Below, in pieces: positions 12,353 through 18,842 of a DNA stretch of 33,048 bases. The position numbers and the translations under genes were made by a program. The notes beneath the pieces are model-generated. The model saw nothing but the letters and a program-made list of their open reading frames with translations, did not search any database and was not told the DNA's origin. The stretch is from Chthoniobacterales bacterium (GTDB lineage Bacteria; Verrucomicrobiota; Verrucomicrobiia; Chthoniobacterales; UBA10450): the NCBI GenBank assembly GCA_013695925.1, contig JACCZO010000303.1, positions 1 through 33,048 of the forward strand. Reading direction: 5' to 3'. Position 1 is the first letter of the stretch; each line of letters starts with the position of its first letter.

Positions 12353-12872
12353 TCACCGTTCTTGTCTTCGCCGCCCATTTCGGGGAAGAGGGCCGGCGCG
12401 AATCTGCACGGCGCCACTGCCGGTGCCTGAGCCAGTCCTGTTATTAACCATAAGCGCGCCCCCCTCCACTTGGGTGCCCCCGGTGTAGAGGTTGCCGTCG
12501 TCAGGATCAGCTTGCCGTCCCGGTTTTAGTCAGTGAGCCAGCGCCATCAATTGTACCGGAAAACGTTGGGCTTAGGTTGGTGATACCCGCGGTCAAGTTG
12601 TTAGCCCCAAGCTGTACAAGGCCGTTTCCTTCAATCGAGCCAACTGTCACGCCCGGAGCGTTGTCAGCGGTAATGTCCAGGCTGCCACTGCCGAAGACCT
12701 CGATCCGTGCAGAGTCGCCCATCGGATCATCAAAGAACTTGATCAATCCGAACGGATCGGCGATCAGCGTCGCATTACCAGCGGTCGTCAGCAGCGGGAG
12801 CGTGAGCCACTGCGCAACAATTGAATGAGCCGGCCGAAGACCGGTAATTAGTGGATGGAATGTTTCCATCAT
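12353..12872 (-). pseudogene. decayed autotransporter-repeat (PATR) protein
   Basis: An open frame from 12872 to 12507 begins with a signal-like segment (METFHPLITGLRPAHSIVAQ) resembling that of the kelch genes. It then changes into sequence typical of passenger-associated autotransporter repeat proteins: TAGNATLI, VGSIEGNGLVQLGANNLTAG and GSLTKTGT. The frame stops there, but the expected continuation is readable in other frames: KLIL, then NLYTGGTQVEGGALMVNN and TGSGTGSGAV, ending near 12353. Two single-base losses close together near 12500-12520 explain the break. Such proteins are normally far longer, so this is a truncated and frameshifted relic. The 120 nt upstream hold one octamer and then a 164-bp inserted element. 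Confidence 0.75.
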
Positions 12873-12994
12873 TCTGGTTCGTAATTTTCTCCTGCTCCAG
12901 ATGCTTGTTCTTAATGATTGTTTTGTTCGTTAGGCATCGGTGTGGGAATTTTGATCGTAAAGTTCTCGCCGTCCGTCTCTCGAAGGGACCTAAG

Positions 12995-13158
12995 AGGGCG
13001 TCTAAAAAGTCGGGCTCCGGACGGAAGTCAGGCTTCCAGCCTGACTTGGCAGGCGGGCATCTTGCCTGCCTAATGCGATGCGACGGGCTGGAAGCCCGTG
13101 GGCCGAGTCAGGCAAGATGCCCGACTTCCGCTGCCGCTCCGCCTTTTTTAGACGCCCT
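12995..13158. mobile_element. MITE-like element with terminal inverted repeats
   Basis: A 164-bp segment bounded by the 14-bp inverted repeats AGGGCGTCTAAAAA and TTTTTAGACGCCCT, flanked on both sides by CTAAG, a likely 5-bp target duplication. It has no coding capacity. Inside are two interleaved inverted pairs: GGCTTCCAGCC with GGCTGGAAGCC, and GGGCATCTTGCC with GGCAAGATGCCC. It lies between the leader ORF at 13175-13303 and the broken gene at 12872. Removing it and one CTAAG restores a leader-to-gene spacing close to that of the intact units. The transposase family that moved it is unknown. Confidence 0.75.
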
Positions 13159-13174
13159 CTAAGACATTTTCTTT

Positions 13175-13303
13175 TCATTTCCATCCAAAAGGAAAAGGCG
13201 GCCGGAATTGCAAAAAAAGTACGAAAAGCCCAAACAAGTTAGCGTGCGGCGCGCGAAAAGGCGGCAGAATTCCGGCCATAAACGCGACCAGAAACCTTTT
13301 CAT
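13175..13303 (-). CDS. short leader ORF of the decayed unit
   Basis: A 42-codon ORF, too short for the track, starting MKRFLVAFMAGILPPF, like the leaders at 14983-15165, 16798-17019 and the in-frame extension before the kelch gene at 17232-18644. The start has a GGGGG Shine-Dalgarno sequence placed in the 3' arm of a hairpin. The peptide looks like a signal or leader peptide. The 5' end is conserved among the four copies, while the lengths and C-termini differ, so a function for the peptide itself is uncertain; translation of the ORF may matter more than its product. Confidence 0.45.
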   Translation of the reverse strand: MKRFLVAFMAGILPPFRAPHANLFGLFVLFLQFRPPFPFGWK

Positions 13304-13436
13304 ATTTTGGACCCCCGATTAACCGGAGCCTCTCTCGACAAGGCCGGCGCGATCCACCATCTGAAGCGGGTCGGGAATATCTAGCGAAGCTGGGGTAAAC
13401 CCCGATTAAGCCCGCTCGCCCGGGATGGTGTCGAGC
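13304..13436 (-). promoter_or_regulatory. candidate structured leader RNA, copy A
   Basis: Copy A of the conserved leader (compare 17020-17152). The closing stem CTCGACA/TGTCGAG is kept. The inner hairpin reads GGGG-TTTA-CCCC where copy C has GCGG-CTTA-CCGC, a compensatory base-pair change. The Shine-Dalgarno hairpin is CTCCG/CGGGG with a G-U pair. The gene downstream is broken, so this copy is probably no longer useful. Confidence 0.55.
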
Positions 13437-13508: not shown

Positions 13509-14930
13509 TTATTGACCACTGCCGGGGACTTTGACCTTCACTTCGTTCGAGCAGGTGCCCGTGTCTGTCTCGCAGACTTGATAGGTGTGGACTTCCCTGG
13601 GCCCGGTGCCGAGGTGGTCCTGAGCGCGGCCGTCGTCAGAGGGCGTATGGATTACCACACCGTCACGCAGGACGTTTATGCTGCCGCCATCCGCCGGGGA
13701 CCACTCAAGGGCGACGAAACGTTTGCCATGTTCCCGACGGACCTTTGCGGAGAGCGTGAGTTCGCCACCCCCGTTGCTTGTGTAGAGTTCCGCGCTCGCG
13801 AGATGGCCGGTGTCGTTATATCCTCCAGCGACGAGCACCTGGCCGTTTGGCAGCAGCGTCGCGGGTCCACCGCGCGCGCGCGCGGCGGCCATGCTGCCCG
13901 TCGCGGTCCACAGTCCGGTCGCCGGATCATAGAGTTCCGCGCTCGCGAGATAGCCGCCGTCCCATCCCCCAGCGACAAGCACCTGGCCGTTGGGCAGGAG
14001 CGTCGCGGTATGGAGTTCTCGCGCGGTAGTCATGCTGCCCGTCGCGGTCCACAGCCCGGTCGCCGGATCGTAGAGTTCCGCGCTCGCGAGAACGAATGGG
14101 CTGGTGCTAGTCCCCCCGCCTGTGACCAGCACCTGACCGTTGGGCAGGAGCGTCTCGGTATGCCACTCTCGCGCGGTGGCCATGCTGCCCGTCGCGGTCC
14201 ACAGCCCGGTCGCCGGATCATAGAGTTCCGCGCTCGCGAGATAGCCGCTGCCGTATCCCCCAGCGACGAGCACCTGCCCGTTGGGCAGAAGCGTCGCGGT
14301 ATGCGCCTCTCGCACGGTGGCCATGCTGCCCGTCGCGGTCCACAGCCCGGTCGCCGGATCATAGAGTTCCGCGCTCGCGAAGTTGCCGTTGCCGTTATTT
14401 CCCCCAGCGACGAGCACCTGGCCGTTGGACAGGAGCGTCGCGGTATGGAAGTATCGCGCGGTGGCCATGCTGCCCGTCGCGGTCCACAGCCCGGTCGCCG
14501 GATCATAGAGTTCCGCGCTCGCGAGATAGGCGTCGCCAACTCCCCCAGCGACGAGCACCTGGCCGTTGGACAGGAGCGTCGCGGTATGGAGGTATCGCGT
14601 GTTGGCCATGCTGCCCGTCGCGGTCCACAGCCCGGTCGCCGGATCATAGAGTTCCGCGCTCGCGAGAGTGCCGCTGAGGCCATATCCCCCAGCGACGAGC
14701 ACCTGGCCGTTGGACAGGAGCGTCGCGGTATGGCGGTTTCGCGCGGTGGCGAGGCTGCCCGTCGCCTCCCACGTGCCAGGTGTTTGCGCTGGCGCCTTCG
14801 TAACGATCGTTCCAGTTACAGATTGACTCAACCCAGCCAAAGCCGGGAGGAGGCCGACGGAGCAAAGAGCAAAACCGATTAAGAGGCGTGAATCGAAGAA
14901 GGCCGATCGAGAAGTGGCGTATGTTTTCAT
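13509..14930 (-). CDS. secreted seven-repeat kelch-type propeller protein 1
   Basis: A 473-residue exported protein. After a signal region ([19 protein letters not shown]) come seven repeats of 46-50 residues built on [16 protein letters not shown], [19 protein letters not shown] and MATAR. That number suits a closed seven-bladed beta-propeller of the kelch/galactose-oxidase type. The C-terminal 85 residues ([27 protein letters not shown] to [10 protein letters not shown]) form a fibronectin-III-like domain with two cysteines. Repeats are almost identical in DNA except in the loop after VAGG and at the two residues before the conserved His. The catalytic residues of galactose oxidase were not identified, so a binding role is more likely. 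The ATG at 14930 follows AAAGGA; the track start upstream is rejected. Confidence 0.85.
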
Positions 14931-14982: not shown

Positions 14983-15165
14983 CTAAGGGTTGCGCGGCGG
15001 CGCATGTTGCCGCGTCACTTTCTTCCTACGGAGAAAGGTGCCCGAAGTTGCAAAAAAAGTGCGCGAAGTTGAGGAAAGACGACCTGGGTGAAGGCCAGAG
15101 GTTGCGCCCGGCACGCGCCAAGCGGCTAAAATTCCGGCGCTGGATGCGACCAAGAACCTTTTCAT
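14983..15165 (-). CDS. leader ORF upstream of kelch gene 1
   Basis: A 60-codon ORF starting [13 protein letters not shown], headed by a well-placed GGAGG 8 nt before the ATG, in contrast to the weaker signal at the kelch gene itself. The GGAGG lies in the 3' arm of a hairpin. It ends 52 nt before the kelch start. The N-terminus is shared with the other leaders; the rest (arginine- and threonine-rich) is not. It could be a regulatory upstream ORF or a duplicated remnant of a signal-peptide exon-like segment. Confidence 0.4.
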
Positions 15166-15300
15166 ATTTAAGACCTCCGATTAACCGGAGCCTCTCTCGA
15201 CAAGGCCGGCGCGATCCACCCTTCTGAAGCGGGTCGGGAATATCTAGTGAAGCTGGGGTAAGCCGCGATTAAGCCGTCGCGTCTGGAACTGCGTCAAGCT
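15166..15300 (-). promoter_or_regulatory. candidate structured leader RNA, copy B
   Basis: Copy B of the conserved leader. The closing stem is CTTGAC/GTCGAG, where a C-to-T change keeps a G-U pair. The inner hairpin has one mismatch (GCGG-CTTA-CCCC). The third hairpin ACCC/GGGT and the Shine-Dalgarno hairpin CTCCG-GTTAAT-CGGAG are intact. A TTGACG followed 18 nt later by CTTAAT could alternatively be read as a promoter within it. Confidence 0.55.
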
Positions 15301-15371: not shown

Positions 15372-16778
15372 TTATTGGCCACTGCCGGGAACTTTGACCT
15401 CCACTTCGTTCGAGCAGGTGCCCGTGTCTGTCTCGCAGACTTGATAGGTGTGGACTTCCCTGGGCCCGGCGCCGAGGTGGTCCTGAGCGCGGCCGTCGTC
15501 AAACGGCGTATGGATTACCACACCGTCACGCGCGATGTTGATGAGGCCGCCATCCGCCGGGGACCACTCAAGGGCGACGAAACGTTTGCCATGTTCGCGG
15601 CGGACCTTCGCGGAGAGCGTGAGTTCGCCGCCCCCGTCGCTTGTGTAGAGTTCCGCGCTCGTGAGAAGGTTGAAACCAGCGTCCTCTCCGCCTGCGACGA
15701 GCACCTTGCCGTTGGGCAGTAAGGTCGCTGTGTGGCCAAAGGCGCGTTCGGTGGCCAGGCTGCCGGTCGCCATCCAAGCGCCGCTCACCGGATCATAGAG
15801 TTCCGCGCTCGCGATAACACCGCCGCTGTCGAAACTGAAACCAGCTGCGACGAGCACTTTTCCGTTAAAGAGTAACGTCGCCGTATGGTCAACGCGGTCG
15901 GTGGCAAGGCTGCCGGTCGCCATCCAAGCGCCGCTCGCCGGATCGTAGAGTTCCGCGCTCGCGAGAGAGTTGGAGCCGTTGTTGAAACCGCCTGCGACGA
16001 GCACCTTGCCGTTAGGCAGCAACGTCGCCGTATGCTCAAAGCGTGCGGTGGCGAGGCTGCCGGTGGCCGTCCAAGTCCCGCTCGCCGGATCGTAGAGTTC
16101 CGCGCTCGCGCCAGCAAAGCCTTCGCCGCCTGCGACAAGCACCTTGCCGTTTGGCAGCAACGTCGCCGTGTGTAACTTGCGTGCGGTGGTGAGGCTCCCG
16201 GTGGCGGTCCAATTCCCGCTTGCTGGGTCGTAGAGTTCCGCGCTCGCGAGATCGCTGTTGAAGATGCCGCCATAGCCGCCTGCGACAAGCACCTTGCCGT
16301 TTGGCAGCAACGTCGCCGTGTGCCTAAAGCGTGCGTCTGCGAGGCTGCCGGTGGACGCCCAGGTCCCGCTTGCTGGATCGTAGAGTTCCGCGCTCGCGAG
16401 AAGATCGAAGTTGCTGTCCTGTCCTCCTACCACGAGCACCTTACCATTGGGCAGCAGTGTCGCCGTGTGTTCATGGCGTCCGGTTGGGAGGCTGCCGGTG
16501 GCCGCCCAAGTCCCACTCGCCGGATCGTAGACTTCCGCGTTCGCGACCCCGAAGTAGCCGCCTGCGACGAGCACCTTGCCGTTGGGCAGCAGCGTCGCCG
16601 TGTGAAGTTCGCGTGCGGTGGCGAGGCTGCCGGTCTCCGTCCAAGTCCCGCTCTGACCCGCGCACGGCTGCACGAGTAATAGCCCAACACTGAGGAGAAG
16701 CAGCGGAAACGCGATCCGCCGCGCAAGAATCGAGCTAACCGGCCGAAGACCGGCAATCAGGGAAGGCAATGTTTTCAT
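15372..16778 (-). CDS. secreted seven-repeat kelch-type propeller protein 2
   Basis: A 468-residue paralogue of the protein at 13509-14930 with the same plan. The signal region is [20 protein letters not shown] then [16 protein letters not shown]. Seven repeats follow ([34 protein letters not shown]) and then the near-identical fibronectin-III-like C-terminus. The repeat wording (NGKVL, PASGTW) differs consistently from protein 1 (NGQVL, PATGLW), so repeats within a gene are more alike than between genes, a sign of homogenisation. The track start at 16832 is replaced by the ATG at 16778 at the signal peptide. One repeat carries a CGTTAGGC octamer where sister repeats have CGTTGGGC, a silent Pro codon change. 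Confidence 0.85.
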
Positions 16779-16797: not shown

Positions 16798-17019
16798 TCA
16801 TCTGTTTTGTTGCTGATCGGTTTTCTCGACAACGAGATACTTCGCTTTACTTGGAATGCCGGTGGTAAAGAGAGTCGCCAGCGCCGGGCCCGAAGGAGCC
16901 TCGCACCGGAAGAGAGTTAAAGCTGATGTCCGACCAGCCGCGGTGGGTTGTTTGCTTCCCTGAACAGCGGAGAAATGCCAGAGCGTTCCAGCGATTGATG
17001 CGACCAGAAACCTTTTCAT
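16798..17019 (-). CDS. leader ORF upstream of kelch gene 2
   Basis: A 73-codon ORF starting [21 protein letters not shown], which would pass as a signal peptide, followed by an unremarkable sequence ending 19 nt before the kelch ATG. Its GGAGG is 8-9 nt from the ATG and paired in a hairpin. The kelch start itself has no visible Shine-Dalgarno, so re-initiation after this ORF is one way the kelch gene could be translated. The ORF track begins 13 codons earlier, inside the hairpin; the ATG at 17019 is conserved in all copies. Confidence 0.42.
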
Positions 17020-17152
17020 AATTTGAGACCTCCGATTAACCGGAGCCTCTCTCGACAAGGCCGGCGCGATCCACCCAGAAACGGGTCGGGAATGATCTAG
17101 TGGGGCTGCGGTAAGCCGCGATTAAGGCGTCCCGCCGGGGATAGTGTCGAGC
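17020..17152 (-). promoter_or_regulatory. candidate structured leader RNA, copy C
   Basis: This is the best-paired copy of a roughly 130-nt leader found between the units of the kelch array. On the minus-strand RNA, CTCGACA (5') pairs with TGTCGAG about 90 nt later and closes a region with two hairpins: GGCT-TAATC-GCGG-CTTA-CCGC-AGCC, and ACCC-GTTTCT-GGGT. Just after the closing stem, CTCCG-GTTAAT-CGGAG pairs, and its 3' arm is part of the Shine-Dalgarno of the leader ORF. A multibranch domain plus a movable Shine-Dalgarno hairpin is typical of translational riboswitches or protein-bound leaders. It matches no class I know. The folding was done by eye. Confidence 0.6.
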
Positions 17153-17231: not shown

Positions 17232-18644
17232 TTATTGGCCACTGCCGGGAACTTTGACCCTCACTTCGTTCGAGCAGGTGCCCGTGTCTGTCTCGCAGAC
17301 TTGATAGGTGTGGACTTCCCTACGGCCGGTGCCGAGGTGGTCCTGAGCGCGGCCGTCGTCATCCACCGTCCGGAATGTCACACCGTCACGCAGGACGTTT
17401 ATACTGCCGCCATCCGCCGGGGACCACTCAAGGGCGACAAAACGTTTGCCATGTTCCCCACGGAGCTTTGCGGAGAGCGTGAGTTCGCCGCCCCCGTCGC
17501 TTGTGTAGAGTTCCGCGCTCGCGAGACTGCCGGAATTAGGATTAAAACCACCTGCGGCGAGCACCGCGCCATCGGGTAGCAACGTTGCCGTGTGAGCAAC
17601 CCGTGCAGTGTTGAGACTGCCGGTCGCAGTCCACAGCCCGGTCGCCGGATCATAGAGTTCCGCGCTCGCGACATAGGCGAAGTTACTGTCAAGTCCCCCA
17701 GCGACGAGCACCTGGCCGTTGGGCAGGAGAGTCGCGGTATCCCAATATCGCGCGGTGGCCATGCTGCCCGTCCCGGTCCACAGCCCGGTCGCCGGATCAT
17801 AGAGTTCCGAGCTCGCGAGGAGGTCGTTGCCGTCATATCCCCCCGCAACAAGGACCATGCCGTTTTGTAGCAACGTCGCCGTGGGACCAGACCGTGCAGG
17901 GTTGAGATTGCCCGTGACAATCCAAGTTCCGCTCGCCGGGTCGTACAGTTCGGCGCTCGCGGAAGCAAAGAAGTTGCTGTCAAATCCCCCCGCAACAAGG
18001 ACCATGCCGTTTTGTAGCAACGTCGCCGTGTGTTCAGCCCGTGCAGTGTTGAGACTGCCCGTGACAATCCAAGTTCCGCTCGCCGGGTCGTACAGTTCGG
18101 CGCTCGCGAGGACGTCGTCGCCGTCATATCCCCCCGCAACAAGGACCATGCCGTTTTGTAGCAACGTCGCCGTGTGAAAAACGCGTGGGTTGTTGAGACT
18201 GCCTGTGGCAGTCCAGGTCCCGCTCGCCGGGTCATACAGTTCGGCGCTCGCGGAAGCTAAGTCGTTGCTGTCATATCCCCCTGCAACAAGGACGATGCCG
18301 TTTTGTAGCAACGTCGCTGTGTGAATAACCCGTGCAGTGTTGAGACTGCCCGTGACAATCCAGGTACGGCTCGGCTGGTCGTACAGTTCGGCGCTCGTGA
18401 GAGCAATGATATTGCTGTCATATCCTCCTGCAACAAGGACCATGCCGTTTTGTAGCAACGTCGCCGTGTGAAAGTGGTGTGCAGTGTTGAGATTGCCCGT
18501 GACAGTCCAAGTCCCGCTCTGACCGGTGCACGGTTGCACGAGTAATAGCCCGGCACCGAGAAAAAGTAGCGGGAACGCGATTTGCCGCGCAAGAATTGAA
18601 GTGGCCGATCGAAGCCCGGCAATCAAGGAATGGAATGTTTTCAT
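17232..18644 (-). CDS. secreted seven-repeat kelch-type propeller protein 3 (mosaic)
   Basis: A 470-residue paralogue with signal MKTFHSLIAGLRSATSILAR then [16 protein letters not shown], seven kelch-type repeats and the same C-terminal domain. Repeats 1-5 have their own wording (HTATLLQNGMVLVAGG, PASGTWIVTGS, with Asp-Ser-Asn or Asp-Gly-Asn loops). The DNA at about 17617-17812, covering the ends of blades 5-7, is nearly identical to protein 1 ([25 protein letters not shown]), so the gene is a hybrid. The Asp/Asn-rich loops could bind metal or sugar, which is conjecture. The track ORF extends upstream in frame through a leader-like peptide (MNRFLVAFIAGILPAF) to 18842; 18644 is preferred by comparison with the paralogues. 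Confidence 0.82.
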   Translation of the reverse strand: MKTFHSLIAGLRSATSILARQIAFPLLFLGAGLLLVQPCTGQSGTWTVTGNLNTAHHFHTATLLQNGMVLVAGGYDSNIIALTSAELYDQPSRTWIVTGSLNTARVIHTATLLQNGIVLVAGGYDSNDLASASAELYDPASGTWTATGSLNNPRVFHTATLLQNGMVLVAGGYDGDDVLASAELYDPASGTWIVTGSLNTARAEHTATLLQNGMVLVAGGFDSNFFASASAELYDPASGTWIVTGNLNPARSGPTATLLQNGMVLVAGGYDGNDLLASSELYDPATGLWTGTGSMATARYWDTATLLPNGQVLVAGGLDSNFAYVASAELYDPATGLWTATGSLNTARVAHTATLLPDGAVLAAGGFNPNSGSLASAELYTSDGGGELTLSAKLRGEHGKRFVALEWSPADGGSINVLRDGVTFRTVDDDGRAQDHLGTGRREVHTYQVCETDTGTCSNEVRVKVPGSGQ

Positions 18645-18842
18645 AGTTTTTGTCTGTATGTGTTTCTGCTTTGTGTCGGCGTCCTGCTGCCGATTCGAGT
18701 TCGTGTGTTTGTCTTCATTCTTGCTAAAAGAAAAGAGCGCGCGGAATTGCAAAAAAGTGCAAGGAGCCCAAAAAGTTTCGCGCGTGGATGGGCGAAAAGC
18801 CGGCAGAATCCCGGCGATAAATGCGACCAAAAATCTGTTCAT
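18645..18842 (-). other. in-frame leader-like extension of kelch gene 3
   Basis: This 66-codon stretch begins MNRFLVAFIAGILPAF, like the separate leader ORFs of the other units, but here no stop codon separates it from the kelch gene. If used, it would put two hydrophobic segments in series. It is more likely the same leader with its stop lost. The structured RNA found before the other leaders is absent here. Confidence 0.5.

Follow-up and report, generated by a model that had tools for sequence, protein, structure and literature searches.

Several kinds of bacterial 5′ leader, including RNA thermometers, translational riboswitches and repressor-bound leaders, sequester the Shine-Dalgarno site of the first open reading frame (ORF) in a hairpin a few bases before its AUG. 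The leader described here is built in the same way. Unlike those leaders, it has no conserved aptamer upstream, and its hairpin differs in having a stem of 5 + 4 pairs, with a predicted energy near -13 kcal/mol in the copy termed C. The riboswitch families of Rfam, including the cyclic di-GMP classes, resemble it only in leader position and in the Shine-Dalgarno hairpin, and none matches it at gathering score. Its upstream end is comparable to sigma-70-type promoters, with which it shares TTGACA, a fixed spacer and a hexamer ending in T; it departs from them in its 18-nt spacer and in a -10 box, CTTAAT, whose second position is not the usual A.

A preliminary description of this locus proposed a new cis-regulatory RNA with the layout of a translational riboswitch. 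We instead favor, with a probability of about 0.74, a putative promoter followed by a leader with a Shine-Dalgarno-masking hairpin, the two forming a lineage-specific cassette that has been duplicated together with its genes. A sigma-70-type RNA polymerase would recognize TTGACA, the 18-nt spacer and the -10 box CTTAAT or its variants, and transcription would begin ~7 nt past the -10 box, within what had been taken for an aptamer. The resulting mRNA leader of ~95 nt would end in a hairpin in which the GGAGG Shine-Dalgarno site is paired with an upstream CTCCG, thereby lowering or conditioning translation of the first ORF. In relatives this ORF would be the secreted protein, and in the window it would be a short, signal-peptide-like leader ORF (42–73 aa) that precedes a kelch gene.

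The window, meaning the whole stretch of 33,048 nt that was analyzed, is one contig of a genome with 495 contigs. Genes for secreted kelch proteins are arranged in tandem on the minus strand between 12.5 and 18.9 kb. Three leaders of ~135 nt each, A (~13436–13303), B (~15299–15165) and C (~17152–17019), precede homologous starts (MKRFLVA...) at 13303, 15165 and 17019, and a fourth homologous start, copy D at 18842, has no leader upstream. Successive leaders are 1863 and ~1855 bp apart. As the repeat period is ~1.86 kb, it is the entire gene unit that was duplicated, and the leader copies sit inside this tandem duplication of a complete kelch-gene unit. The three copies noted in the preliminary description are thus present ahead of tandem kelch units, on the minus strand, which it had left unstated. 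The genes concerned are as follows.

12507..12872, minus strand: fragment of a PATR-type secreted protein 3′ of leader A, with 54% identity to the protein behind leader L036
13175..13303, minus strand: leader ORF A, 42 aa, from ORF reading
13509..14930, minus strand: kelch gene 3′ of leader B, an ORF
14983..15165, minus strand: leader ORF B, 60 aa, from ORF reading
15372..16778, minus strand: kelch gene 3′ of leader C, from the ORF list, termed kelch by homology to a Pfam-tested neighbor; it has a second signal-peptide start
16798..17019, minus strand: leader ORF C, 73 aa, from ORF reading
17232..18842, minus strand: third kelch gene, copy D, with the homologous start MNRFLVAF and no leader upstream

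The PATR fragment appears to be decayed, its frame stopping at 12507 while similar sequence continues beyond. Between this fragment and leader ORF A lies a 174-bp insert (12990–13163). Its 19-nt terminal inverted repeats (CTAAGAGGGCGTCTAAAAA) are 95% complementary and enclose a further inverted repeat, and the insert resembles a small mobile element or a REP-like one.

Roughly 13 further copies of the leader were found in a single Chthoniobacterales family, namely in the same genome, in the same genus and in three other genera. A DNA search yielded L004 and L005 in the genome itself (a contig end truncates one of the two), L009 from the same genus and L010 from a different genus, and a search for the hairpin pattern added L015 and L016. 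The first covariance model encoded the Shine-Dalgarno hairpin as its only structure and was therefore neutral toward the closing stem discussed below; run over 213 genomes of the order, it added L023, L024, L036, L026 and L037. L054 came from a second model, which also raised L027. The covariance-model search of related genomes that had been suggested for this leader gave additional family members; 384 genomes sampled from the class contributed nothing convincing. Given these yields, the element is rare and, as far as seen, confined to one family. The weak covariance-model matches L028–L034, L051 and L055–L060, outside the family (E ~1e-4 to 0.04), were judged by inspection to be noise, most of them lying within reading frames. 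A DNA-pattern search of named genomes returned the same Verrucomicrobia only, plus scattered single matches in unrelated phyla, and a search of the literature found nothing on the leader element. In L004 (1488–1634) the leader copy is followed by a short ORF whose terminal ATGA overlaps the start of the next gene, which is itself truncated to 54 aa.

Comparison of these copies points to a promoter at the upstream end. Among the members in which this end is present, 14 of 15 match TTGACA at five or six of the six positions. An 18-base, little-conserved spacer follows, and then a hexamer, usually CTTAAT or CCTAAT, whose final base is T in 14/15 members and whose second position is A in 6/15. Mean information per column is 1.6 bits in the -35-like hexamer, 0.48 in the spacer, 0.91 in the -10-like hexamer, 0.52 in the following 15 bases and 1.2–1.5 in the leader core. 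The corresponding boxes in the window are listed here.

13429..13434, minus strand: copy A, -35-like box TCGACA, from hexamer comparison across members
13405..13410, minus strand: copy A, -10-like box CTTAAT, from hexamer comparison across members
15292..15297, minus strand: copy B, -35-like box TTGACG, from hexamer comparison across members
15268..15273, minus strand: copy B, -10-like box CTTAAT, from hexamer comparison across members
17145..17150, minus strand: copy C, -35-like box TCGACA, part of the 5′ closing arm of the preliminary description (TTGACA at 5 or 6/6 in 14/15 members)
17121..17126, minus strand: copy C, -10-like box CTTAAT after a spacer of 18 (last base T in 14/15 members)

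The constancy of TTGACA, the 18 unconserved bases and the hexamer ending in T together read as a promoter, and the 5′ arm of the proposed closing stem reads as the -35 box of a sigma-70-type promoter. Two further observations concern the arm itself. L009 and L026 keep TTGACA-18-CTGAAT/CTTAAT, despite the deletion of the 3′ arm of the stem in the former and its truncation in the latter, and the base preceding the hexamer is C, A or G among members, whereas the closing stem needs C. Full sigma-70 promoters (TTGACA-16-TATAAT) were found in 4/4 other genomes of the genus. A strict promoter scan called none of the leader sites, since most of their -10 boxes have no A at position 2. A promoter in this position would leave most of the 5′ half of the proposed aptamer outside the transcript. 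The conservation pattern makes a transcription start within the proposed aptamer most likely, and from such a start the closing stem could not form. Elsewhere in the genus, L063 carries TTGACA-18-CTTAATCGTG at 1500–1535 without the leader core, possibly a promoter of the same type.

Beyond the predicted start, the leader of ~95 nt has a core conserved in primary sequence (1.2–1.5 bits per column) up to GAGAGGCTCCGG...CGGAGG and the ATG. Its principal features in the window are given below.

17020..17115, minus strand: copy C, predicted 5′ untranslated leader, its putative start placed by conservation; core conserved in relatives
17025..17049, minus strand: copy C, Shine-Dalgarno hairpin GAGGCTCCG-GTTAAT-CGGAG(G)TCTC, with GGAGG at 17033–17029, from pairing in relatives and a folding z of -3.66
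15170..15194, minus strand: copy B, Shine-Dalgarno hairpin, from pairing and local folding
13309..13332, minus strand: copy A, Shine-Dalgarno hairpin with one G-U pair and a weakened outer stem, from pairing and local folding

The hairpin CTCCG-GTTAAT-CGGAG of the original proposal is confirmed: it directly precedes the ATG, its GGAGG is well spaced, and copy A keeps the pairing through G-U, as had been reported. Across 12 members, 91.7% of cells in this hairpin are paired, compared with at most 67% when it is slid, and its local folding has a mean z of -1.87. Divergent copies retain the pairing through G-U (L023 and L024, as in A) or through a change of C-G to U-A (L036), while L037 has CTCGG/CCGAG, a C-G to G-C swap with a one-base shift. 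Under local folding the hairpin is weak in L023, L024 and L054. Covariation is slight, with 306 of 500 shuffles reaching the observed score and two double changes each confined to a single sequence; it fails to exceed shuffles because there is little variation. Moreover, the purine-rich character of a Shine-Dalgarno site may force part of the complementarity. That the pairing is under selection is moderately supported by these comparisons, and a regulatory role for the hairpin is plausible.

Wherever the downstream gene is clear, its product is a secreted or surface-type protein. Pfam identifies kelch (the window and L010), PATR passenger repeats (L024 and L036), a YNCE-like beta-propeller (L037), FG-GAP repeats (L026) and a phosphoesterase (L016), and by eye the proteins behind L023 and L054 resemble PATR proteins. 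A signal-peptide start, MKTxSTSRSxFFNxRxLIG, is common to L005, L004, L009 and L026, in which it stands ahead of different secreted proteins, shortly after the leader. Several relatives use the ATG that follows the hairpin as the first codon of the secreted protein. In the window this ATG opens the short ORF, and next comes the kelch gene, which has a signal peptide of its own. From this distribution we infer that promoter, leader and start have been joined to new genes as a cassette.

It could be argued that duplication is all there is to explain, with promoter, leader and signal-peptide start being shuffled to new genes as one cassette and the hairpin having no regulatory role. The tandem kelch units of ~1.86 kb, the truncated copies L009 and L026, and the leaders that stand ahead of unrelated passengers and decayed genes (L004 and L016) are all in keeping with this possibility. 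We nevertheless consider it doubtful, as divergent copies keep the hairpin pairing through G-U, U-A and G-C replacements.

Another possibility adds to the promoter-plus-leader reading rather than replacing it. A trans-acting factor, either a protein or a small RNA, might open or hold the Shine-Dalgarno hairpin and so co-regulate surface proteins. The element would then be a previously undescribed leader RNA from one Chthoniobacterales family, whose core is read by the factor that opens the hairpin and switches secreted surface proteins together. Conservation of the ~95-nt leader beyond the hairpin, ahead of unrelated passenger genes, is what such a factor would predict, but recent cassette copying may by itself account for the common sequence. 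Control by CsrA or Hfq was considered and rejected, neither gene having been found in a genome that is ~85% complete. On balance, a factor of this kind seems unlikely, and we put it forward only tentatively.

The riboswitch itself, in which a ligand-binding aptamer closed by CTCGACA/TGTCGAG would control the Shine-Dalgarno hairpin, fares much worse and is now very improbable. Its appeal comes from the window. The closing stem pairs 7/7 there (in B by way of G-U pairs) and is contained in the minimum-energy folds of copies A and C, and the primary sequence of the leader core is conserved. Rfam has 0 matches in the window at gathering score, and at E ≤ 10 none inside the leaders, the weak matches at that level being to unrelated families outside them; the statement that the leader matches no known class, cyclic di-GMP classes included, is upheld. 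The change in the second hairpin from GGGG/CCCC (A) to GCGG/CCGC (C), described as a compensatory pair, is real, but copy B has GCGG/CCCC, in which the same pair is broken, so the compensation has two sequences behind it and a third that breaks the pair. In addition, leaders A, B and C show no folding advantage over dinucleotide shuffles (z of -0.58, +0.91 and -0.94, respectively), and the plus-strand RNA shows none either.

Among the relatives the fold falls apart. The closing stem is broken in most of them with no compensatory change, as in L010, L015, L016 and L037, where the 3′ arm has changed. The 5′ arm stays TTGACA opposite the altered 3′ arms TGTCCAG (L015), CTTCGAG (L016) and TATCGAG (L037), as it does in L009, from which the 3′ arm is deleted. 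Outside the window the inner hairpin is missing, with 38.6% of its cells paired. In the 11 aligned sequences that have letters in both arms, the closing stem, the inner stem and the inner hairpins were also compared with shuffles. These helices show one double-change pair versus 2.8 in shuffles, and 66.2% of cells paired versus 67.1%, which is no excess. The larger alignment therefore gives no covariation above shuffles for the closing and inner helices and no conserved aptamer fold, and the translational-riboswitch layout was rejected on these grounds. The downstream genes, which encode varied surface proteins rather than a metabolic pathway, likewise do not suit a riboswitch, and ligand sensing by the leader is unsupported.

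Least probable of all is control by translation of an upstream frame, GTG GAT CGC GCC GGC CTT GTC GAG AGA GGC TCC GGT TAA, which can be read directly from copies A, B and C, ends in the hairpin loop (so that its translation would open the Shine-Dalgarno site) and has a stop overlapping the next ATG in L023 and L024, but whose start codon is lost in L004 and L036, whose stop is not conserved in L005, L010 and L015, and whose GTG has no well-spaced Shine-Dalgarno site before it.

The leader element is thus new in the sense of being absent from Rfam and, on this evidence, is not a riboswitch. The case corrects a plausible riboswitch call, since three near-identical copies can give a convincing fold from a promoter box that matches a segment of the leader by chance. 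The comparison leaves a small, lineage-specific promoter-plus-leader cassette that, in soil Verrucomicrobia, recurs before different secreted proteins. Should the hairpin regulate, it would offer a handle on the control of surface proteins in these little-studied bacteria.
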